Part shown: piece by piece, positions 12,086-45,887 of the stretch
Numbering within the stretch: position 1 is the first letter of the stretch
How the letters are laid out: the number at the start of each line of letters is the position of its first letter
Virus record (IMG/VR): IMGVR_UViG_3300032116_000342
Coordinates: 1-47,781 of that record
Strand: one strand, 5' to 3'
DNA from: a virus
DNA: 47,781 bases
Made by a program: the position numbers and the translations under genes
Notes under the pieces: model-generated
Database searches by the model: none
The model's input: only the letters and a program-made list of their open reading frames with translations
What the model was told of the DNA's origin: nothing

Positions 12086-15000
12086 ATGGCGCTCGTCAGG
12101 ATTCAGGTTCGTCGCGATCCGGCCGCCACATGGGCGGCAGCCAACCCGGTCCTCGCAGCTGGCGAGCCGGGCCTCGAGACGGATACTGGCAAGATCAAGT
12201 ACGGCGACGGCGTTCGCGCCTGGAACTCGCTGCCGTACTCGTCGGGCGTCAGCTTGGGCAGCAGCGTTCCGCCGGCGGCAGGGACGGCTGCGGCTGGGAC
12301 GAGCCAGGACGCTGCGCGAGCGGATCACTCGCATGCCCTGCCGACGAACCTTCAGGCCCAGACGATCCAGGCTTCCGGCAGTGCCTCTGTCGGCGGCACG
12401 CTGACCGTCACCGGGCAGCTTATTGGTGGCACGCACCGGCACAACGCTGCCGACATCAACGACCTTACGGCCGCCGTTTTCTCTCGCATCGTCTCGTCCA
12501 TCAAGGCCGGAGCGAACATCCAGGCGGAGGTCGACAGTGCAGCGCAGACGATCACGCTCAGCAGCACGTCCGCAGGCTCTGCACCACTGGTAATCACGCA
12601 GAATCCGATCGACTACGCAGCGACGAGCGGAACGGCCACCTTCTCTGCCACAGCCATCGGAGGCCGAGACACGCTTACCTACGAGTGGCAGGTATCCACA
12701 GACGGCGGCAACACGTGGGCCGCAGTTCCTGGCGCCAGCGGCTCTACACTCGTGCTTTCTGGCGTCACCGGCGCGATGAGCGGCAATCGCTATCGCCTTC
12801 AAGTGTCGTCGGGCACTGAGGTGGTGGTTTCAGCGCATGCCGTCCTGACTGCCGGCGGAGTGACCATTACCGCGCAGCCCCCCGACTCGACGGTCGACGT
12901 TGGCGGCACTGTCCGGTTGGCGGTGGCCGCATCGGCAGGGTCGACGGCCATCTCCTACCAGTGGCAGCAGTACAACGCGACATCCGACTCGTGGGCCGAC
13001 GTCCCAGAGGCCGACCTGCCCGTGTATTCGTTCATTGCCGCCGCCGCTACAGGCTCCTCTGGTAATCAGTATCGCGCCGTCGTGAGGGCGGCGGGCCAGA
13101 CGGTCGAGTCTCGCACTGCCGTCGTTGTGGTTCGCCCGGCGGCCGTATCGTTTCCGGTGCAGCCAGAGAGCACCACAGACGTTGCCGGCGCCGCCACGTT
13201 TGCCGCCGACGTTGTGGGTGGCACTGATCCGCTGGTACTGCGGTGGCAGAGGCTCGGTGGCGGCTCGTCTGCGTGGAGCAGCTCCAGTGTGTTTGAGGAC
13301 ATACCGGACGGGGCGTCTGGCGTGAGCGGCCAGGCCGCAGAGACGTTGTTGCTGACAAGCCAGACTGCGTCGCAGCATCTGCGCCGCTATCGCCTAAAGG
13401 TGACGGACGCAGACTCCCGCGTCGCCTACAGCGCAGAGGCCACGCTTCGCACGCTGTCTTTGGAGATAACCGCACACCCGGAGGACGTTTCAGCAACTTC
13501 TGGCGACACGCTGTCGGCATCCGCCTTCTCCGTGACAGCATCGGCCGACGGGGGCGTCACGTACCAGTGGCAGAAGTCAGTCAATAACGGCACGACTTGG
13601 TCGAACATCGCCGGAGCCACGTCTGCGACATACGGCGGATTTGCCGTCACGTTCCTCGACGACGGCGCGTTGTTTCGGTGCGCCGTGACTGGCGACGGCC
13701 AGACGCTGAACAGCGAGTCGGCCTCGCTGGCTGTAGCCGCGCCTGCGCTTACGATCACCACGCAACCCCAGAACGTCACCGCCACAGGATCGACCGCCAC
13801 CTTCTCCTTCGGCCACTCCGGCGGCCCGTCAGTTACGCCTCAGGTGTACTGGGAGTCGCGAACGGCCTCTACCGGGTGGGTGCGCATCCCTGGAGCCACC
13901 ACCACAACGCTCGCCGTTTCCGGCATCACGCCAGAAAACAACGGAACCGCATATCGTGGCGTCGTGCAGCGAGGCTCCGCCACCGCGTTCACCGACGCGG
14001 TCACGCTGACCGCTCCAGGCGCAATCATTTTCTTGCAGCCGCAAGACGCGACGGCAGCGTCCGGTAACGCCAGCTTCAGCGTGGACTTTACGTCCGTCGC
14101 TTGCTCTGCGCCGACAATTACGTGGCAGCTGCGCACCTCGCCAAGCGGCTCATGGTCTGCCGTTGCCGGCGCCGGGAGCGTCAAGACGCTTGAGATCGGA
14201 GGGCTGACGACATCGTTCAGCGGCTACCAATACCGCGCACTCGTGGCGTGCGGCGGAAGAGAGGTTGCGTCGAATCCAGCCACGCTCACGGTCCCAGTGC
14301 CTCCGGTCGTTATCACAACTCAGCCAAGCGACGCCACTGCCGCTCTGGCGCAGGCGACGTTTACGTTTGCCTTCTCCGGCGGCGACGGCTCTGCGCCCAG
14401 CATCGTGTGGGAGCGGGCGCTTCCAGGCGGCGCGTTTGCCGTCGTGCCCGGCGCCACTACGAACACGCTGGCGGTCAACGGCATAACGACATCCATGTCT
14501 GGCGCACAGTATCGTGCGACCGTGACTATCGGCTCTCAGTCCGCCACGACCCGCTCCGCAGTGCTGACCGTCGGCGGCGCCACGATCACGCTTCACCCCG
14601 TAGACGCCATTGCGGTCGATAGGGCCGCGACGTTCACCTTCGACTTCTCGTCGTCGTGCTCGTCGCCCTCAATTCAGTGGGAGAGCAAGCCGCCGACGTT
14701 CACCGTGTGGTCGCCGGTGCTCGGGGCCACTTCGCGCACCCTGTCTCTTACTAACCTGCTGCCGTCCGATTCCAACCGCCAATATCGTGCCGCCGTTGAG
14801 TGCGGCGGATCGGTTTCGTACTCCAGCGCTGCCACGCTGACCGTTCCGTCCTACGAGTTTTTTATCACCCAGCCCGGCTCTCAGAGCGTCAATGCCGGCG
14901 ACACCGTGACGTTCTCGTACCAGGGCATGTTCAATGTCCCGGATTACCAAGCGCGCTGGCAGATGCGGCGGATCGGCGGCGGCTGGTCTAATGTGGCTCG

Positions 15001-17068
15001 CGGTCAGTCCTACACCTTCAAAGCCAACGCTCGCGCGCACCACAACACCGAGTGGCGAGTGCAGGTTGCCACTCCTGGCGGCGTGCTGTTTAGTGCTGTA
15101 GCGAGGCTGACCGTTGGTAAGCTGACTTCGACCAAGCCAGTGGCGCTCGCCGGAACATCCGATCTCGTCGGCATCGCCTATGCGAAGGGTGCGTTCGTGG
15201 CGTTAGCATCTGACCAGACGGCCATCATTCGCCGATCCACAGACGGTGGCGACACGTGGCAGACGCACTGGCTTCCCGAGTCTCGCTACTGGGACGGCGT
15301 TACTGCCAGCCAGAACGGAGCGCTGTTCGCGTACGGCAGCGGCGAGAGCGGAACCGTCAACGCCGACTTTTCTCCACAAACCAACCCCAACACGCCGTTC
15401 AACTGGACGCCGACGTGGAGGGACGATCCCGACTCCCGCGTTGGCCCGAAGCGGACGGCCACTGTGGCGCGGAGCCTGGACGGCGGTAGGACGTGGGCAA
15501 AGCTCCAGCTTCCATTCTTCGCAGGCAACTGCCTGCGGATGTGGGGAACGAATTACAACAACGCGGTCGTGGCGTTCTTTTTCTCCGAGAGCCTGACGGG
15601 ACGGCGCAGCCGAGAGCACTGGTGGTTTGGGTCGCGCGCCGGAGCCGGCGGTGGGCGGCGTCGCAACGGACGGCTGAAGATGGCCGTGACGCTCAATGAT
15701 GGCGCCTCGTGGAGCGTCTTTGATTGGCCGCTGCCCCCGCAGGGTGGCGCCGTGTATCCACCTCCGCGCGCCCTTGTTCCAAAGCAGGTCGCCATCAGCC
15801 CGTCTGGGGTCATGGTGGTCGCCACTCGCGTGACAGACTTTGGCGCAGACAAGGAATACCCTGGCCTGCTGTTGACGAGAAACATAGCGGCAAGCGGCTG
15901 GGGCACGCCCACGACCGCATCGACGGCCACTATTAGGATTGCCACTAGTAACGGCAACTCAGCGCGCACCATCGCGACTGGCCTCCTTCGCACCGGCGGC
16001 GTGGTGGGCGACCTGACATACAGCCGCTCTCCGTCGCTGGCGGAAGGATTCAATGTGGGCCGCGCAATCACCAACCACGACGCCAATTCGGTCGAGTGGG
16101 TTCCCGGCGCCGGATTCATTGCTGCGCATGACAGGTATCGCGTGGCAATGATTTCTCAGGACGGAAACCTGTGGGGGGCCGTGCCGACCGAGCGCATCTT
16201 AGGCGAAGTGCCGCTGCACGTCGTGGGCAACGCGCTGTACGGCATCGACACGACGCTTCCCAATTACGAATGGGTGACGACAGCCACGTCTGAGTCGTAT
16301 CCCGACTTCGTCAACATGAATCTTGGCATCACGACCATCACGGACACGGTGAACTGCTGGGCGCACAGCCCGTCCGAGATCATGCTTCTTGAGACTGGTG
16401 GGTCGATTACGTGGATTCCTCGCGACGACGCTCCGAGCGCCAATCCCGGCGAGCTGGCCGACCCTGACTCGCCAGACGACCTCACCGTCGAATCTCGCTC
16501 ACAGTCCGCAGTCCTCTCTTGGACGCCGTCGCCGAGCGCGACCGCAAACCCACCGCAGCGATACGACGTGGAGTACACATCCGACGATGGCAGGACGTGG
16601 ACGACGCACACCGCTCCGGCCAGCACAGCTACTTCGCGCACGGTGTCGGGCTTGACGCGCGGCACGACGTACTACTTCAGGGTGGCGGCAGTGTTTTCGT
16701 CTGGGACAAAGGCGTACTCCGCGTGGAGCCCACCAGTCACGCCTGCCGCCTCGCCGCCTGGAGCGCCGGCGTGGGTTCGCGCCATGTGGAGCCAAGTGGC
16801 GCTGCCGGGCAATCCGCGAAGGATACTTGTCTCGTGGGGAGCGCCTACGGACGACGGAGGCGCTCCCATCACCTCGTACATCGTCCAGACGTCGGACGGC
16901 TTGGCCACCCTCGCCAACCATATTAACTTGACGCGGCTCACGGCGTTTATCGACCCCGCGCTTCTGCGCAGCCGTCCCGGCGGAGCCAACGCGGCGACGT
17001 TCCGCGTGCTCGCGGTCAATTCGGCAGGCATTAGCGCTGCAAGCCCCACGTCCGGTGTAGCCAGCTAG
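12086..17068 (+). CDS. Giant tail adhesin with Ig-like, propeller and FN3 domains, 1660 aa
   Basis: Residues 1-55 match the Mtd_N-type fibre attachment domain (VRIQVRRDPAATWAAANPVL, then AGEPGLETDTGKIKYGDG). From about 168 to 1010 I count nine Ig-like repeats, each with a strand like ITTQP..., a conserved YQW or WE core, a PGAT turn and a YR.V edge strand. About 1011-1460 is a BNR/sialidase-like propeller with repeats such as STDGGDTWQTHW, SLDGGRTW and LNDGASWSV. Two FN3 domains follow at about 1461 and 1560. It should project from the virion and bind host-surface glycans or proteins. The propeller may be an enzyme or a binder; I see no proven active site. Confidence 0.85.
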   Translation: MALVRIQVRRDPAATWAAANPVLAAGEPGLETDTGKIKYGDGVRAWNSLPYSSGVSLGSSVPPAAGTAAAGTSQDAARADHSHALPTNLQAQTIQASGSASVGGTLTVTGQLIGGTHRHNAADINDLTAAVFSRIVSSIKAGANIQAEVDSAAQTITLSSTSAGSAPLVITQNPIDYAATSGTATFSATAIGGRDTLTYEWQVSTDGGNTWAAVPGASGSTLVLSGVTGAMSGNRYRLQVSSGTEVVVSAHAVLTAGGVTITAQPPDSTVDVGGTVRLAVAASAGSTAISYQWQQYNATSDSWADVPEADLPVYSFIAAAATGSSGNQYRAVVRAAGQTVESRTAVVVVRPAAVSFPVQPESTTDVAGAATFAADVVGGTDPLVLRWQRLGGGSSAWSSSSVFEDIPDGASGVSGQAAETLLLTSQTASQHLRRYRLKVTDADSRVAYSAEATLRTLSLEITAHPEDVSATSGDTLSASAFSVTASADGGVTYQWQKSVNNGTTWSNIAGATSATYGGFAVTFLDDGALFRCAVTGDGQTLNSESASLAVAAPALTITTQPQNVTATGSTATFSFGHSGGPSVTPQVYWESRTASTGWVRIPGATTTTLAVSGITPENNGTAYRGVVQRGSATAFTDAVTLTAPGAIIFLQPQDATAASGNASFSVDFTSVACSAPTITWQLRTSPSGSWSAVAGAGSVKTLEIGGLTTSFSGYQYRALVACGGREVASNPATLTVPVPPVVITTQPSDATAALAQATFTFAFSGGDGSAPSIVWERALPGGAFAVVPGATTNTLAVNGITTSMSGAQYRATVTIGSQSATTRSAVLTVGGATITLHPVDAIAVDRAATFTFDFSSSCSSPSIQWESKPPTFTVWSPVLGATSRTLSLTNLLPSDSNRQYRAAVECGGSVSYSSAATLTVPSYEFFITQPGSQSVNAGDTVTFSYQGMFNVPDYQARWQMRRIGGGWSNVARGQSYTFKANARAHHNTEWRVQVATPGGVLFSAVARLTVGKLTSTKPVALAGTSDLVGIAYAKGAFVALASDQTAIIRRSTDGGDTWQTHWLPESRYWDGVTASQNGALFAYGSGESGTVNADFSPQTNPNTPFNWTPTWRDDPDSRVGPKRTATVARSLDGGRTWAKLQLPFFAGNCLRMWGTNYNNAVVAFFFSESLTGRRSREHWWFGSRAGAGGGRRRNGRLKMAVTLNDGASWSVFDWPLPPQGGAVYPPPRALVPKQVAISPSGVMVVATRVTDFGADKEYPGLLLTRNIAASGWGTPTTASTATIRIATSNGNSARTIATGLLRTGGVVGDLTYSRSPSLAEGFNVGRAITNHDANSVEWVPGAGFIAAHDRYRVAMISQDGNLWGAVPTERILGEVPLHVVGNALYGIDTTLPNYEWVTTATSESYPDFVNMNLGITTITDTVNCWAHSPSEIMLLETGGSITWIPRDDAPSANPGELADPDSPDDLTVESRSQSAVLSWTPSPSATANPPQRYDVEYTSDDGRTWTTHTAPASTATSRTVSGLTRGTTYYFRVAAVFSSGTKAYSAWSPPVTPAASPPGAPAWVRAMWSQVALPGNPRRILVSWGAPTDDGGAPITSYIVQTSDGLATLANHINLTRLTAFIDPALLRSRPGGANAATFRVLAVNSAGISAASPTSGVAS

Positions 17069-21573: not shown

Positions 21574-22394
21574 GCTTCAGCCTACAGGGCAGCCAGATTC
21601 GTGCGTCTCTCGTGGGGGCTGGCCTTCCGGCCGACGCGGCCACCACGATCGCCAACGTGCTCAGCAATGCCGTGCAGACGCTGCGTCACGCCGGCGACGT
21701 GGAGGTTGATCGCACGCCAAGCAACCTGCGGCTCGTCACGCCGGACGACCGCAAGCACTCACTGAAGAATCTCGACTTCCGGGCTGGCGACCCAGACCAT
21801 CGCCAGACTCAGGCCAATGTGGCCGGCAGCGAGGGGAGGCGCGAGCCGGAGCCAGAGCCTGCCGTCCTTGTCGAGCGTTCGCCGCAACGCGACCAAGCGC
21901 CATTCCGCGTAGCTGGCGGTGCCTACACGGACACCAATGCGCAGGGCGACGCAGTGCGAGTGGACTTGCGCCTGCGTGGCAACGGCGACTGCGCCTTCAT
22001 CGAGCCTCGCGCCAACACGCTGATCGGCAAAAGCCTTCGAGCAGAGGCAGGCGGTGGCGATGACGGCCGGCTCCGGTTCTTTATCGAGCAGACCGAGCGC
22101 GAGGCCATCTGGAAGCTCCAGCTCATCAACGTGCAGAAAGTGCGGGTCGTGAGCGACATCCAATACCAGCAGGGGCGCGGCCTTGTCGTGAGCTATCGAG
22201 ACATCGAGACGTGGTCATACTCGAAGCCGTCCATCGAGGTGATCCCTGTGGTTAGCCAGCAGGTCATTTCCGGCGTCGTGCTCGGCGAGGACGGCATTGC
22301 CATCTCCAGCGCAGTAGTGGACGTGCTAGGGGCTGTCGCCGGGCCGGCCGGTCTAATCGAGACGGACGACTGCCCTGAGGAGCCACCAGCGTGA
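21570..22394 (+). CDS. Tail-associated hypothetical protein, 274 aa
   Basis: It overlaps the nozzle stop as ATGA. The first 40 residues are helical (IRASLVGAGLPADAATTIAN), a charged Pro/Glu-rich linker follows (REPEPEPAVLVERSPQRDQA), and the rest is mixed beta with FIEQTEREAIWKLQLINVQK. The protein ends in a hydrophobic Ala/Gly/Val stretch and a DDCPEEPPA tail. It lies between the nozzle pair and the Cys-rich protein and so belongs to the tail module by position. I recognise no domain. Confidence 0.6.
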   Translation: MSFSLQGSQIRASLVGAGLPADAATTIANVLSNAVQTLRHAGDVEVDRTPSNLRLVTPDDRKHSLKNLDFRAGDPDHRQTQANVAGSEGRREPEPEPAVLVERSPQRDQAPFRVAGGAYTDTNAQGDAVRVDLRLRGNGDCAFIEPRANTLIGKSLRAEAGGGDDGRLRFFIEQTEREAIWKLQLINVQKVRVVSDIQYQQGRGLVVSYRDIETWSYSKPSIEVIPVVSQQVISGVVLGEDGIAISSAVVDVLGAVAGPAGLIETDDCPEEPPA

Positions 22395-23395
22395 AGCTGG
22401 CAACGATAGGCGGAAAGCTGCTTAGGACGGCTGCGGGAGCGCTTGCAACCGCCTGCCGGTGCTGCGTACCGCCGCCGCCGCCGAAGTATTGGTGCTTCCC
22501 GGCCGGCCTTGATCCGTGCGGCAACCCGCTCTACGAGTGCCGCCAAGACGAGACAGGCGAAGGCGCGCATTCAGGGCCGTTCGAGTCATGCGAGGGGGCG
22601 TGCCCGCCTCCGCAGCCGTGCGAGTTTCCGTACTGGTGCTTCACGAACGGAACCGATCCGTGTGGGAATCCAACCTACGAGTGCCGCCAAGACGAGACAG
22701 GCGAAGGCGCGCACTCTGGCCCATTCGAGTCGTGCGAAGGAGCGTGCCCAACACCTCCGCCATGCCAGTATTACTGCTGCTACGACTCGGAGCCGAGCCT
22801 CGACCCGAACGCTCCGCTGCCAAGCAAGTCCTGCCAGCAAGGCCCGTGCTCGTCGCCGTCGCTGACGGCGGGAGGCCCATTCGCAACGGCGGCAGCGTGC
22901 GAGGAGCAGTGCGTGCCGCCGCCATGCTCAGGCCCGTGCCCCTGCCCGCCTGGGTGCGAGTGCGTGACAGAGTGGTATCTACACCAGGCAACTTGCGAAT
23001 ACATCGCGCTTCCGCCTTTTGACCCGCCGGAATGCAACGACCTCATCGGCAACGGCATAAACCTTGCGATTTCTGGACTCTACAATGTCGGCGGGGAAGT
23101 TGGGCCGTTTGAAACCTACGAGGAGGCAAGAAGCGCGGCGTTGGCAACTGGGTATGTGTCGTGGGAATCTCTTTACGGCGGCGAGAATCCAGATTCAACC
23201 GACGCCCCTTGGGTGGCCCCCGATGACGAGCCCGGCCTGTGCGTGCCGCCCCAGCACGGGCTAAGTATGAGCAACGATGGACGCCCGCAATTCCAAGGCT
23301 GCACTTGGGTTGGCGAACTATCCATGACCCTGCCGCCCCCGCTTATATGGGCCTTTACCAAGTCTCGGTGCGACAGCAGCAACCCGCTCCCATGA
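22391..23395 (+). CDS. Cysteine-rich repeat protein, 334 aa
   Basis: The GTG start overlaps the previous stop as GTGA and has GAGGAG nine bases upstream. After a short N-terminal helix the protein has a poly-Pro run and then two near-identical 48-residue Cys modules (YWCF...DPCGNP.YECRQDE..., ending GPFESCEGAC). A third diverged module ends GPFATAAACEEQC, followed by a dense CSGPCPCPPGCEC cluster. Dense paired cysteines point to disulphides or metal binding in a surface-exposed protein. A later GPFETYEEARSAA segment keeps the GPF motif without Cys. The GPF-x-C module type also occurs in planctomycete proteins as I remember them. Likely a virion surface or tail accessory protein; enzymatic role not evident. 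Confidence 0.7.
   Translation: MKLATIGGKLLRTAAGALATACRCCVPPPPPKYWCFPAGLDPCGNPLYECRQDETGEGAHSGPFESCEGACPPPQPCEFPYWCFTNGTDPCGNPTYECRQDETGEGAHSGPFESCEGACPTPPPCQYYCCYDSEPSLDPNAPLPSKSCQQGPCSSPSLTAGGPFATAAACEEQCVPPPCSGPCPCPPGCECVTEWYLHQATCEYIALPPFDPPECNDLIGNGINLAISGLYNVGGEVGPFETYEEARSAALATGYVSWESLYGGENPDSTDAPWVAPDDEPGLCVPPQHGLSMSNDGRPQFQGCTWVGELSMTLPPPLIWAFTKSRCDSSNPLP
22487..22774 (+). repeat. Two tandem 144-bp repeats inside the Cys-rich gene
   Basis: Copies start at 22487 and 22631, exactly 144 bases (48 codons) apart. A 38-base core (22532-22569 and 22676-22713) is identical, and the flanks differ mostly at third positions or in the variable loop. This indicates a fairly recent in-frame duplication with a constrained or gene-converted core. 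Confidence 0.85.
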
Positions 23396-41426: not shown

Positions 41427-41899
41427 TGCACGTCGCACTTGAGTGGTTCGAGGTGAGCCGGGCTGCGCTCGTAGGCGTGTCCCGCAACGTCGAGGCTCTT
41501 CGGAAGGGGTGTCAGAACCGCATGCCAATCAACGACGAGTGGAGCATCCACATACTCGGAGCGCTAGGCGAGTGTGCCTTCGCGAAGGCGACCAACCGCT
41601 ACTGGAACGGAAGCGTCAATACCTTCAAGGCCGGTGGCGACGTCGGCGAGTCGATTCAGGTGCGCACGAGATCGAAGCACAGCTACGACCTCATCGTCAG
41701 GCGCGACGACCGAGACGCCGACGTGTTCGTGCTTGTTACGGGCGGGCCTCACGACTTCGAGGTGCGAGGCTGGATGCTCGGCAAGGACGCGAAGGCCGAC
41801 AAGTACAAGGCGAACTATGGCAACTACGGCGAGGCGTACTTTGTTCCCAGTCGGGAGCTGCGCTCTGTCGCGGACTTGGTTCTCGGAGGTGGGCAATGA
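41426..41899 (+). CDS. PD-(D/E)XK-like fold protein, 157 aa
   Basis: Start at ATG 41426, TGATG overlap. IHILGALGECAFAKATNRYW (E49), FKAGGDVGESIQVRTR (D72, Q78-V-R80) and DADVFVLVTGGPHDFEVRGW follow the order of a PD-(D/E)XK fold, but the usual catalytic lysine is replaced by arginine. It is therefore either a variant or an inactive nuclease-fold protein. This is the fourth nuclease-like gene in about 6 kb. No partner motif is obvious. Confidence 0.5.
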   Translation: MHVALEWFEVSRAALVGVSRNVEALRKGCQNRMPINDEWSIHILGALGECAFAKATNRYWNGSVNTFKAGGDVGESIQVRTRSKHSYDLIVRRDDRDADVFVLVTGGPHDFEVRGWMLGKDAKADKYKANYGNYGEAYFVPSRELRSVADLVLGGGQ

Positions 41900-42411
41900 A
41901 TGCCACGACGATGCAGACGTTCAGCGGCCGGCTCATAGACCTTTCTGCGTTCTCCGTCGAGGACGTGCGCATAGCCGACATTGCGCACGCCCTGTCGATC
42001 ATCAACCGCTTCACCGGCCACAGCAAAGTCCCGTACTCGGTGGCGCAGCACAGCGTCATGGTGAGCCGTATATGCGAGCCGGAGCATGCGCTGTGGGGGC
42101 TGCTGCACGACGCCAGCGAAGCATATCTGGGCGACATGGCAACGCCGCTCAAGACCCTGCTGCCTCAGTACCGCGAGCTAGAGGAGCGCGTCCAGAGGAC
42201 GATTGCCCTGGCGTTCGGATTGGCGTGGCCCATGCCGCCTGTCGTCAAGGTCGCCGACCTGCGCGCCTTGATGGGCGAGAAGCGCGACCTCGTTCCTGGC
42301 TCGGCCGACTGGGGGATCGACATTGAGCCGGCATGCGGGCCGATCAACCCGTACTGCTGGCGCGAAGCAAAGAAACTTTTTGAGGACCGTTACAAGGAGC
42401 TAGTTCCATGA
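41896..42411 (+). CDS. HD-domain phosphohydrolase (YfbR/DatZ-like)
   Basis: 171 aa with GGAGGTGG upstream, ATGA overlap. The HD site is complete: SIINRFTGHSKVPYSVAQHS (R38, H52), LLHDASEAYLGDMATPLK (H71, D72, E75, D80) and VKVADLRALMGEKRDL (D121). These residues define YfbR-type 5'-deoxynucleotidases, and the same fold is used by DatZ, the dATP triphosphohydrolase of 2-aminoadenine phages. It should remove phosphates from deoxynucleotides in the cytoplasm. The next gene, overlapping by four bases, is a dATP/dGTP diphosphohydrolase-like protein, so the pair likely edits the nucleotide pool. Which nucleotide is used cannot be read from sequence. Confidence 0.82.
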   Translation: MNATTMQTFSGRLIDLSAFSVEDVRIADIAHALSIINRFTGHSKVPYSVAQHSVMVSRICEPEHALWGLLHDASEAYLGDMATPLKTLLPQYRELEERVQRTIALAFGLAWPMPPVVKVADLRALMGEKRDLVPGSADWGIDIEPACGPINPYCWREAKKLFEDRYKELVP

Positions 42412-42770
42412 TGATGAAGGTATGCGAAGAGAAGGCGGTTCGGTATCAGAGCGGTGCGGTGCGGTCGAGCGACGCAGAGGCGACGCGCTACGACCTCATC
42501 ACTCCGATTGGACTGGCGGCTGTAGCTGCCGCTTGCGCGGAGGGTGCCGCTAAGTACGGCGACTACAACTGGGAGAAGGGCATGCCGGCGAACGACATGC
42601 TGAATCACGCACTGCGCCATATCTATATGTTCCTCTCCGGAAACCGGGACGAGGATCATCTCGGACACGCAGCGTGGAACGTCATGGCGGCGATCCACTC
42701 CCTCGAGGTTTGGCCGGAACTGAACGAGGGAACACTTCGCAGCGGCTATTGTGAGGCACCGCGACACTAA
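42408..42770 (+). CDS. DUF5664-like dATP/dGTP diphosphohydrolase-type protein
   Basis: 120 aa with AAGGAG eight bases before the ATG, coupled to the HD gene. The body QSGAVRSSDAEATRYDLITP, then AACAEGAAKYGDYNWEKGMP and NHALRHIYMFLSGNRDEDHL, with GHAAWNVMAAIHSLE, is the full signature of the DUF5664 group, which Pfam labels a dATP/dGTP diphosphohydrolase N-terminal domain. E/D/H residues sit on MazG-like helices (EGAAKYGD, HALRHI, DEDHLGHAAW). Together with the HD enzyme it may clear selected dNTPs for phage synthesis. No PurZ, and no PurA-like gene, is visible in the window. Confidence 0.78.
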   Translation: MMMKVCEEKAVRYQSGAVRSSDAEATRYDLITPIGLAAVAAACAEGAAKYGDYNWEKGMPANDMLNHALRHIYMFLSGNRDEDHLGHAAWNVMAAIHSLEVWPELNEGTLRSGYCEAPRH

Positions 42771-43343
42771 ATGATTGCCGTCGCCGTAACGGAATACGAC
42801 GACGAGAACATCGTTGAGGAATGCGAGAGCGGCTGGAGGAGGTTCTGTGCAGAGGTTCTCGTTAGGACGCACTACCACGTGCGGGAATTGTGTAATCGCC
42901 ATCGTCGGCTGGGGTGCGCACGGATGCAGCCCTCCAGCCGGAAGGAGTGGGAAATCCTACGCCGGCAGGTAGCCGCCTACCGCTGGGTATTCGAGGGCAC
43001 TGGGGAGGGCTTTACGTTTGCCCAGACGTGCCTGGATTTGGGCCTTTGCCCGGTGGTTGTGCGCCGGAAGCTGCTGTCTCTGTGCCGCCCAGAGCGGGAC
43101 ATAAACCTCTTAGTGGGCTGGGTCCGCAGGCAAGAGGAGAGGCAACGTGGCAACCATCGCGCAAAAGGTAAAGCAGCTCGTGGAATGGGCGCCAGCATTG
43201 TCGCTGCTGTCCGAGATTTCCGCAGCCGACACGGCGAAAGAGAGGGTCGACGGGGCGCTCAAACTCATGCGGTTTGTCGCTACCAAAACCCAGACGCCAA
43301 TCGACGACGAGCTTCTGGAGAGGCTGGAGGCAGTGCTCCTTAG
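42771..43343 (+). CDS. HTH-like regulatory protein (putative), 190 aa
   Basis: No strong ribosome binding site precedes the ATG, which directly follows the previous TAA. The trusted part is residues 1-127. It includes QPSSRKEWEILRRQVAAYRW and VFEGTGEGFTFAQTCLDLGL with CPVVVRRKLLSL, a pattern like helix-turn-helix regions where a 'pF.f..vC..LGl....lR..L' segment recognises DNA. From residue about 127 the frame runs for 197 bases inside the next gene in another frame and becomes Arg/Gly/Ala-rich, probably disordered. It sits where late-gene activators often lie, ahead of the lysis region, but this function is inference. Confidence 0.45.
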   Translation: MIAVAVTEYDDENIVEECESGWRRFCAEVLVRTHYHVRELCNRHRRLGCARMQPSSRKEWEILRRQVAAYRWVFEGTGEGFTFAQTCLDLGLCPVVVRRKLLSLCRPERDINLLVGWVRRQEERQRGNHRAKGKAARGMGASIVAAVRDFRSRHGEREGRRGAQTHAVCRYQNPDANRRRASGEAGGSAP

Positions 43344-43419
43344 CTCGCAGGGCCAGGAGCTGTTCGAGTACATCGTCACCCTGGTCACGGCGGTGTCGTT
43401 CACGGAGATCGACGAATGA
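43147..43419 (+). CDS. Small helical protein, 90 aa
   Basis: GTG start with AGAGGAGAGG just upstream. It begins MATIAQKVKQLVEWAPALSL and is almost entirely helical (VDGALKLMRFVATKTQTPID, then LEAVLLSSQGQELFEYIVTL). Its 5' 197 bases are also the 3' part of the preceding gene. The strong ribosome binding site and the ATGA coupling downstream support it as a real gene. Small helical phage proteins of this kind are common next to holin-like genes. Function unknown. Confidence 0.6.
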   Translation: MATIAQKVKQLVEWAPALSLLSEISAADTAKERVDGALKLMRFVATKTQTPIDDELLERLEAVLLSSQGQELFEYIVTLVTAVSFTEIDE

Positions 43420-43662: not shown

Positions 43663-44091
43663 ATGGGCTGGGTTCGTGCCTCCGTCATCGCTGCGTGCCT
43701 GCTTGTGTGCGCTGGCGCAGCCGGCGTGAGCTGGGTGCAGTCTGTGCTGCGCCCTGTAGATACGCGCCCGGTTGTTGTTCCCGCCTCCGTCCTGGCTGGC
43801 GTGGGTTCGGCCGACGCCAAGCAGCTTCGCGACTTCTACGCCGCGATGGCCGACATCGTGGTGCGTGACGGGCAGGCGAAGGAGCCGGTGTGCAAGACGA
43901 CGCTCGACCTCCGCAATCGGCACAAGGCTGCATTGCAGATGGCGTTCGCAATGACCGGCATGGTCGGCAAGTATCCGGGTCTTGGCGAGCGGCTCGACGC
44001 CTATCTGCTTGATGCCATTGGCGGCACGGATGTTCCGCTGACTTCGGCTATTCGAGAGTCGGCCTCGAAGGCGTTCGCGGCGATCCGATAG
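43663..44091 (+). CDS. N-terminally anchored helical protein, 142 aa
   Basis: GGGGGAAG precedes the ATG. A signal-anchor or signal peptide occupies residues 3-22 (WVRASVIAACLLVCAGAAGV), then a likely periplasmic domain follows with ADAKQLRDFYAAMADIVVRD and LRNRHKAALQMAFAMTGMVG. The charge and helix content are consistent with a membrane-bound spanin-like or accessory lysis protein, but there is no lipobox or recognised spanin signature. It lies one gene ahead of the papain-like protease. Confidence 0.55.
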   Translation: MGWVRASVIAACLLVCAGAAGVSWVQSVLRPVDTRPVVVPASVLAGVGSADAKQLRDFYAAMADIVVRDGQAKEPVCKTTLDLRNRHKAALQMAFAMTGMVGKYPGLGERLDAYLLDAIGGTDVPLTSAIRESASKAFAAIR

Positions 44092-44100
44092 GGAGAGGCG

Positions 44101-45036
44101 ATGGAAGACACCTACTCCCCAGAAGAGATCGTGCGGCTGTACGAGGATGGGCTTGTCGGGTCGGTCTGCGACCCAGAGGCGACCGCCCGTCTGGCCGCTA
44201 CCCTGCCGATGCCGTTCTTTGGGTTCACGCTGCACGGCAGTGGAGCCGGCAAGTTGAGCCTGCCGTTCAAGGCCGTCGTCGAGTTCGAGAAAGCGACCGG
44301 CCGGAAGCCATACGACGAGGCGCAGACGACTGGCGACTGCGTGTCCCATGCCGTCCGCAATGCCATCGACATTGCGAGAGCCAACGACCCTGACATCCAC
44401 TCCACAGAAGACTGGGTGGACCGCACCGCAACTGAGCCTCTCTACGGCGCTCGCGGCCATTCCGGGCAGGGCGCTATCTGCTCCGACATCGTGGGCTGGG
44501 CGCACCGCACCGGCGGCTGCATGCTCCGCAAGAAGTACGACGAGCTGGGGCTCGACCTGTCGCAGTACAACGCATCTGTCGGCATCCGGTGGGGCGGCAG
44601 GGGCGTGCCGGCGAATGTCACTTCCGCAGCGGCGAAGCATCGCGTCGGCACGATCAGCTTGATCCAGTCGTGGGAGCAAGCTCGTGATGCACTGGCCAAT
44701 GGGTATGGCGTGCTGGCGTGCTCGAGCGTCGGCTTCCAGCACACCAGAAACTCGGAGGGCGTGGCCCGGCCTTCTGGGGTATGGCAGCACGCGATGGCCT
44801 GGACGGCGGCGGATGACACCCGTCCTGGCGACTGCCGCTTTTGCGTGCAGAACAGCTGGGGCTATTCGTGGATCAAGGGAGATAGGGTTCACGGCCAGCC
44901 GGAGGGCTCGTTCTGGGTTACGCAGGACGTTGCCAAGCGGATCATAGATCACGGTGGCACGTGGGCCGTGAGCAACGTGGACGGCTTCCCGCGCCGCCAG
45001 CTCAAGGACTGGGGCGCGAAGGAGGTGCTCGGGTGA
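44101..45036 (+). CDS. Papain-like (C1A-type) cysteine protease
   Basis: 311 aa, GGGAGAGG upstream. The catalytic triad is readable: EAQTTGDCVSHAVRNA (Q75 as oxyanion residue, C80), GVWQHAMAWTAADD (H230) and CVQNSWGYSWIKGD (N251 in the classic NSWG). Spacing C-to-H and H-to-N is close to papain's. A long N-terminal segment (1-70) could be a propeptide-like or targeting region. There is no signal peptide. Papain-like enzymes are uncommon in phages. Among single-TM genes here it could be a lysis enzyme acting on peptide cross-bridges, a virion maturation protease, or a defence/anti-host protein. Confidence 0.82.
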   Translation: MEDTYSPEEIVRLYEDGLVGSVCDPEATARLAATLPMPFFGFTLHGSGAGKLSLPFKAVVEFEKATGRKPYDEAQTTGDCVSHAVRNAIDIARANDPDIHSTEDWVDRTATEPLYGARGHSGQGAICSDIVGWAHRTGGCMLRKKYDELGLDLSQYNASVGIRWGGRGVPANVTSAAAKHRVGTISLIQSWEQARDALANGYGVLACSSVGFQHTRNSEGVARPSGVWQHAMAWTAADDTRPGDCRFCVQNSWGYSWIKGDRVHGQPEGSFWVTQDVAKRIIDHGGTWAVSNVDGFPRRQLKDWGAKEVLG

Positions 45037-45275
45037 AGATCAGCGTTGCGACTGTGGCGGTGTGGCTGGCGTTCGCGCCTGCTGCCGTGTCTCCCAAGCC
45101 AGAGCCAGCCCCGCAGAAGTGCTGCGGTGCGTGCAATGGAACGGGGATGGTGTGGACCGGCGATGGTCTGGCGCGGGTGCATTGCCCGTGCCCGTCTACC
45201 TGCCCGTGCGCTAAGAACCGCCCAAAGATGACGCTCTCCGGGACGTGCGTCGGAGGCCAGTGCAATGTCCGCTGA
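45033..45275 (+). CDS. Secreted small Cys-rich protein, 80 aa
   Basis: GTG start coupled to the protease stop. A cleavable signal peptide is evident (KISVATVAVWLAFAPAAVS). The mature part is Cys-dense: QKCCGACNGTGMVW, then VHCPCPSTCPCAKNRP and GTCVGGQCNVR. The C..CNGTG motif resembles one turn of a DnaJ-type zinc finger. Exported, Cys-rich and next to a cysteine protease, it might be an inhibitor, partner or envelope protein; this is speculation. Confidence 0.6.
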   Translation: MKISVATVAVWLAFAPAAVSPKPEPAPQKCCGACNGTGMVWTGDGLARVHCPCPSTCPCAKNRPKMTLSGTCVGGQCNVR

Positions 45276-45546
45276 CAACATCCGCAAGCTGAAGGAGGAG
45301 CTGGAGCCGAACTCCCCACGCCGCACGCCCAGTCATCCGACGAAGAGCCACGTCGTCCTGGCGAAGCGTGGCGGCGAGGAGCGACTCATTCGGTTCGGCC
45401 AGCAGGGCGTCGAGGGTGCTGGCTCCGACCCGAAGACCGAAGAGGAGAAGGCCCGGCGCCGCAGCTATTACGCACGACACAACGCCCAAGACTCTGATCC
45501 TGACATCTTCTCGGCGCGTTACTGGTCGCACAAGGTGAAGTGGTAG
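45265..45546 (+). CDS. Small conserved phage protein with ARYWSxKVKW C-terminus, 93 aa
   Basis: GGAGG lies upstream, and the start overlaps the previous gene's end by 11 bases. The order 'HPTKSHVVLAKRGGEERLIR, FGQQGVEGAGSDP, RRRSYYARHNAQ, ARYWSHKVKW' matches a widespread family of small phage proteins of unknown role that end in 'aRyW..k.lW', probably structural. It is not membrane-bound. It is embedded among small TM genes, so co-expression with the lysis or late set is likely. Confidence 0.68.
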   Translation: MSADNIRKLKEELEPNSPRRTPSHPTKSHVVLAKRGGEERLIRFGQQGVEGAGSDPKTEEEKARRRSYYARHNAQDSDPDIFSARYWSHKVKW

Positions 45547-45548
45547 GC

Positions 45549-45887
45549 ATGGAAGAACTAAAGGAATACGTCCGCTCTCGCGTGCCGGTGCGTGCTGCAC
45601 TGGTCGGCCGGGCCGGCCTGGACGGGCTGGTCGAGGACGCCGTTGCGGAGTGGCCCATCTCGCCGCTCATGGAGTGTGCTCATGGAACTTCGATGGAGCG
45701 CAAGGTGCTCGACGGGCTGTCGGGGCGGGTTCGTCGTCGACGCCAGCGATACGGCTTTATCTGGTCGCTGCTGCTGGCATCTGCCCTGTCGGCGGTGATT
45801 CGCATCATTCTGGAATGGTGGCTATCCAGACCGGCCAATCGGGTGAAGCTGGCTGGGTGGCAGTGTGCGTCGAGAGGTGAGTCGTGA
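45549..45887 (+). CDS. Protein with C-terminal transmembrane segment, 112 aa
   Basis: I start at ATG 45549 rather than the in-frame GTG at 45540. The first 70 residues are soluble and helical (EELKEYVRSRVPVRAALVGR). A strong TM segment is FIWSLLLASALSAVIRIILE, after a very basic RVRRRRQRYG, giving a positive-inside signal. The short C-terminus is WQCASRGES. Holin-type or accessory membrane role is possible. Family not recognised. Confidence 0.55.
   Translation: MEELKEYVRSRVPVRAALVGRAGLDGLVEDAVAEWPISPLMECAHGTSMERKVLDGLSGRVRRRRQRYGFIWSLLLASALSAVIRIILEWWLSRPANRVKLAGWQCASRGES

Follow-up and report, generated by a model that had tools for sequence, protein, structure and literature searches.

The best match to the protease described here, both by sequence profile and by fold, is xylellain (Xylella fastidiosa, PDB 3ois), a C1-type papain-like enzyme. 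The two proteins share ~15% identity, and the active-site spacing is Q-x5-C in xylellain versus Q-x4-C in the phage protein. Xylellain is a bacterial enzyme and not a phage gene, and we know of no comparable gene cassette for it. Papain-like domains are nevertheless already known in phages. The fold is found in tailed-phage proteins annotated as peptidase C1A in the BFVD structure library (uncultured Caudovirales, Streptomyces phage Shady), which share 14-18% identity with our protein and are likened to it by fold alone, and the papain-family N5 domain occurs in the LysA endolysins of mycobacteriophages (PMC3314691). The initial annotation of this DNA had treated papain-like enzymes as foreign to phages, a view that these examples do not support. 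LysA is moreover a phage lysis enzyme; its N5 domain is one module, usually combined with an amidase, muramidase or transglycosylase domain and with wall-binding motifs, whereas the protease studied here is single-domain and has no partner hydrolase.

Two further described systems are similar in gene arrangement. The lambdoid lysis cassette (holin, endolysin, Rz/Rz1) resembles the present locus in its position upstream of the terminase, seen in several of the related prophages, and in the small membrane proteins flanking an enzyme, and the SAR endolysins resemble it in the N-terminal membrane anchor present in most protease relatives. The locus differs from both in the papain-like enzyme, in the Cys-rich/thioredoxin-like partner and in having a holin or spanin as candidates only. 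A survey of the lytic proteins of prokaryotic viruses, published in 2025 (PMC12596118), does not use the words papain, cysteine, thioredoxin or Planctomycet anywhere in its main text. What is new in the locus is a papain-like enzyme that stands alone, in a conserved cassette of lysis-like character that has no recognised peptidoglycan hydrolase, together with the Cys-rich/thioredoxin partner and the tie to Planctomycetota.

The window (the whole stretch of DNA analysed, 47,781 bp) corresponds to bases 11148-58928 of a 65,377-bp IMG/VR phage contig, at 100% identity. The protease ORF starts with ATG, encodes 311 aa and has a ribosome-binding-like sequence, GGGAGAGG, on its 5' side. The dN/dS values against six orthologues were 0.09-0.21, and the gene is thus under purifying selection. 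In the window it is located after the replication genes and before a gene for a LamG/fn3 protein, far from the terminase and ~39 kb from the capsid gene.

Several other features of the contig were recorded. A 1660-aa protein (12086-17068, plus strand) has an Mtd_N domain, the N-terminal domain of phage major tropism determinants, together with Ig, fn3 and BNR repeats. The 334-aa ORF at 22391-23395 contains a 120-bp segment in two copies (22486-22749, plus strand), which are 82.5% identical and 144 bp apart. Near both ends of the 65-kb contig, AAA/MoxR-like ATPase genes were recognised by eye on the minus strand (contig positions 3-914 and 61481-64392), one of them adjoined by a VWA-domain-like gene, also by eye and on the minus strand. 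At 41899-42770 (plus strand) of the window, a gene resembling HD-domain phosphohydrolases, DatZ/YfbR-like as judged by eye, is directly followed by a MazZ-like dATP/dGTP diphosphohydrolase gene (PF18909, E 3e-20), and genes similar to these two are also found upstream of the protease cassette in several relatives. A Z-genome (2-aminoadenine) reading of this gene pair was considered and rejected: a PurZ-type gene was found in none of 12 phage records, and a 2-aminoadenine genome is therefore not supported.

The AlphaFold model of the window protease, built with 61 aligned relatives, reached pLDDT 88 and pTM 0.88; the 61-sequence alignment was needed, the single-sequence prediction giving only pLDDT 35. 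The top Foldseek match of the model was xylellain (E 2e-8, prob 1.00), followed by many cathepsins, and the sequence profile detected the same structure in the PDB (E 2.4e-7) with the Q, C, H and N residues aligned. The catalytic order Gln, Cys, His, Asn is that of papain family C1 (MEROPS clan CA). The N-terminal 70 residues are helical in the model. When the window protein alone was searched against Pfam, PHROGs and PDB, nothing significant was found; Pfam PF00112 did not match it and matched 3 of the 61 relatives (best E 3.6e-4). The Gln75-x4-Cys80 spacing is one residue shorter than the Gln-x5-Cys of papain and xylellain and appears as a one-residue gap in the 3ois profile alignment. Since PF00112 misses the window protein and this spacing is short, formal C1A membership is not claimed.

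The residues Q75, C80 and H230 are present in 163/163 distinct relatives and N251 in 160/163 (Gln in the other three), a count that is partly biased because some loci were fetched by patterns that include active-site residues. The clade-A patterns, PYDE[AT]QT (which includes Q75) and [TS][TI]EDWVD, are unbiased for C80, H230 and N251; Cys and His were found without exception in the clade-A loci and in 12 prophage proteins detected by profile and not selected by motif. All four residues are invariant across 26 phage orthologues, and N251 is in a QNSWG context. The three proteins in which Gln replaces the catalytic Asn are prophage homologues (L082, L087 and L088), and their activity may differ. 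The initial annotation had placed the four active-site residues at these positions and had proposed a papain fold; the positions were right, the residue conservation across 163 relatives is far beyond chance, and structure prediction and fold search bear the fold out. Judging from sequence and model, it is nearly certain that the gene encodes a papain-like cysteine protease with protease chemistry.

Scans with the window protein and with its alignment detected 55 loci with 67-100% identity to the window protease. Beyond these loci, the first relative to be found was encoded on the Planctopirus limnophila plasmid pPLIM01 (WP_013112484.1, annotated as hypothetical; 27-30% identity). Genes for terminase, portal, capsid, tail and integrase are annotated on this plasmid (complete, 37 kb), which is therefore a phage-plasmid. 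Profile search of 392 Planctomycetota genomes gave matches in 14, or in 13 after removal of L075 (genome G309), an ordinary bacterial C1-type protein outside the family; several of the remaining loci are clearly prophages. When viral contigs were scanned with prophage members, the patterns of one clade returned at least 600 stretches, at least 567 of them confirmed, and two more such scans added 56 and 4 viral loci. Most viral records carrying relatives are fragments. No relative was detected by tblastn with three family members in 50,697 GenBank phage records, plasmids beyond pPLIM01 gave one insignificant match only, and a genome-wide pattern scan with A3 gave no match.

The members in cellular genomes all belong to Planctomycetota, in a profile search that was confined to Planctomycetota genomes and so does not prove a restriction to them, and they are found on either side of the family tree's midpoint. 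The clade of the window protease (34 distinct proteins, support 1.0) contains no member from a cellular genome, and we therefore infer the host of this phage. Its terminase has one relative with 38% identity in a planctomycete genome, and the terminase relatives in phage isolates are only 22-23% identical. The phages of the family most likely infect Planctomycetes, and the window phage would share this host group.

Gene calling and iterative profile searches were performed on 191 viral and 13 prophage loci. The gene order is a small protein, in some loci a short membrane protein, the 142-aa-type partner, the protease and the secreted Cys-rich protein (Table 1). Among 19,092 ORFs of the loci, none of the cassette families scored away from the cassette.

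Table 1. Genes of the protease cassette in the window and the evidence for each
Feature	Position	Strand	Evidence
90-aa small protein, first in the cassette, in holin/regulator position	43147..43419	+	ORF call
81-aa protein with N-terminal hydrophobic segment	43416..43661	+	relatives in 49 loci, upstream of the protease in all
142-aa membrane-anchored or secreted helical partner	43663..44091	+	relatives adjacent upstream in 166/181 viral loci
Predicted papain-like cysteine protease (Q75, C80, H230, N251)	44101..45036	+	model, Foldseek, profile, invariant catalytic residues
80-aa secreted Cys-rich protein, CCxxCxGTG...GDG...CPCPxTCPC...CxxGQC	45033..45275	+	
93-aa protein	45265..45546	+	PHROG 7595 (unknown function), E 3.9e-27; 17 loci
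115-aa protein, single hydrophobic segment close to the C-terminus	45540..45887	+	relatives downstream in 73/166 loci
87-aa protein in which a charged helix follows an N-terminal hydrophobic segment	45884..46147	+	45 loci, all downstream

The 90-aa protein has a weak PHROG 402 match (E 6.5e-6) and relatives in 45 of 167 loci, each time immediately upstream of the protease. In 105 others of the 167, this first place is filled by a second family that has a C-terminal hydrophobic segment, and the two families together account for 150. The 81-aa and 115-aa proteins are holin-like candidates, the 87-aa protein is a holin- or spanin-like candidate, and the 93-aa protein, present only in close relatives, is probably accessory. 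Comparison of the small membrane proteins with known holin and spanin families gave no match. The 142-aa partner matched DUF2749 weakly, below the cut-off, and some of its prophage relatives have lipoprotein-type signals. The upstream partner is fused in the pPLIM01-type prophages (L090 21-1133, L081, L083, L085): a hydrophobic N-terminus resembling a two-segment holin is followed by a lipobox-like motif, a region similar to the L080 protein (itself a weak PKD match) and a C-terminal helical domain.

The Cys-rich gene likely starts at GTG 45033, which overlaps the protease stop codon, and so the two genes are probably translationally coupled. A secreted Cys-rich protein is found downstream of the protease in 141/166 loci, and the Cys-rich and/or thioredoxin form in 148/166. 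The downstream partner has or adds a Pfam thioredoxin domain with CxxC in four loci, prophage and viral (L077, L079, L086, L175); the window's own partner keeps the Cys-rich part only, without the thioredoxin domain. The protease itself has an N-terminal hydrophobic segment in 0/50 members of the window's clade, whereas in the other clades 76/78, 44/52 and 4/5 have one. The large terminase gene is just downstream of the cassette and on the same strand in L077, L078, L079, L080 and pPLIM01. Such a place upstream of the terminase is that of the lambdoid lysis genes.

No CHAP domain was detected in 15 records, and the other six hydrolase families, Amidase_2, Phage_lysozyme, SLT, M23, Amidase_3 and NlpC/P60, were not found in 29 records (the 65-kb parent contig plus 28 related records, the complete pPLIM01 included). 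The lysin-family searches gave matches in control genomes. Known lysin domains were found neither among 20 unannotated pPLIM01 proteins nor in the scanned window proteins, and reading the remainder of the 65-kb contig by eye revealed no lysin. These negative results hold for the known families tested, and a lysin of another family or fold could be encoded among the many unannotated proteins. The lysis-like neighbourhood described in the initial annotation, with flanking short membrane proteins, a secreted Cys-rich protein and no canonical lysin in the window, is therefore supported, and for the tested known families the lack of a lysin extends to the parent contig and the 28 related records; the planctomycete and thioredoxin links had been missed. 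As no ordinary wall-digesting enzyme was found, planctomycete phages may burst their cells by an undescribed route.

From the predicted fold and the gene context, we consider it fairly probable that the protease serves planctomycete phages as the enzyme of the lysis cassette that degrades the envelope, and that it acts with a thiol-type helper. The small membrane proteins of the cassette would release or anchor the protease: the window protease has no signal and would therefore need holin-type release, and most relatives would use their own N-terminal membrane anchor. Beyond the inner membrane the protease would cut load-bearing peptide bonds, more likely in the protein-rich layer that has been reported in the planctomycete envelope, otherwise in peptidoglycan peptides. 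The Cys-rich/thioredoxin-type partner may reduce the disulfides of the layer or keep the catalytic cysteine reduced. The planctomycete protein layer is rich in cystine, and a protease with a thioredoxin-type partner would fit a protein layer held by disulfides.

According to PMC3422733, which cites Koenig 1984, Liesack 1986 and others, Planctomycetes have been described as having protein walls that resist SDS. A lysozyme-sensitive, DAP-type peptidoglycan sacculus is also present in these bacteria (PMC4432640), and a purely proteolytic lysis therefore needs explaining. We propose only tentatively, as a possibility with the balance against it, a reductive-proteolytic lysis in which the protease and a secreted disulfide-reducing partner would dismantle a disulfide-linked protein wall without a peptidoglycan hydrolase. 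Such a lysis would, to our knowledge, be unlike any mode described for tailed phages.

The substrate is also the point at which a strict endolysin would differ from the envelope-degrading lysis enzyme, a reading with which it otherwise overlaps: the papain fold would act on peptidoglycan peptides, as it does in NlpC/P60, CHAP and the N5 domain of LysA, and the host protein layer would be irrelevant. The DAP-type peptidoglycan of Planctomycetes (PMC4432640), the papain-family domains of LysA (PMC3314691), and the presence of phage lysins and of a protein annotated as peptidoglycan binding-like among the fold matches are consistent with such an enzyme. We nevertheless regard it as rather unlikely, since the protease retains all four residues (Q-C-H-N) that mark true papain-type proteases, its nearest solved structures are cathepsins and xylellain and not NlpC or CHAP, and no wall-binding domain was recognised.

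The conservation of the cassette across very distant phages and phage-plasmids, as expected of an essential function, its location among late genes by the terminase in several prophages and the failure to find another lysin candidate make it unlikely that the exported protease serves a surface conflict (superinfection exclusion, removal of receptors or inactivation of host proteins in the periplasm) and that the true lysin has another fold, although the membrane anchors and the lipoprotein and secreted partners would fit such a role equally well and the family's phages have many unannotated proteins. Phage proteases mostly mature heads, and the window clade has no export signal. A role in virion processing (maturation of the prohead or tail), perhaps as a packaged enzyme, was also considered. 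This role is very improbable: pPLIM01 is annotated with its own ClpP-type head maturation protease and the prophage L078 has one by PHROG, most relatives have membrane anchors and look exported, secreted, Cys-rich or thioredoxin-like partners would be odd for a cytoplasmic assembly factor, and the capsid gene is distant in the window. Among the three roles initially suggested (replacing the endolysin, processing virion proteins, acting on host proteins), the replacement of the endolysin is now the best supported, and virion processing has lost ground.

The protease and its cassette are candidates, at the level of genes, for the means by which viruses burst Planctomycetes, bacteria in which the nature of the wall, protein or peptidoglycan, has been a matter of dispute for decades. 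Relatives are common among contigs of uncultivated viruses, and standard annotation misses the family because it is absent from the searched GenBank phage records and is not recognised by Pfam. Planctopirus limnophila DSM 3776 with its phage-plasmid pPLIM01 offers a direct test system, and if the reductive-proteolytic model holds, there would be a real chance of something categorically new.
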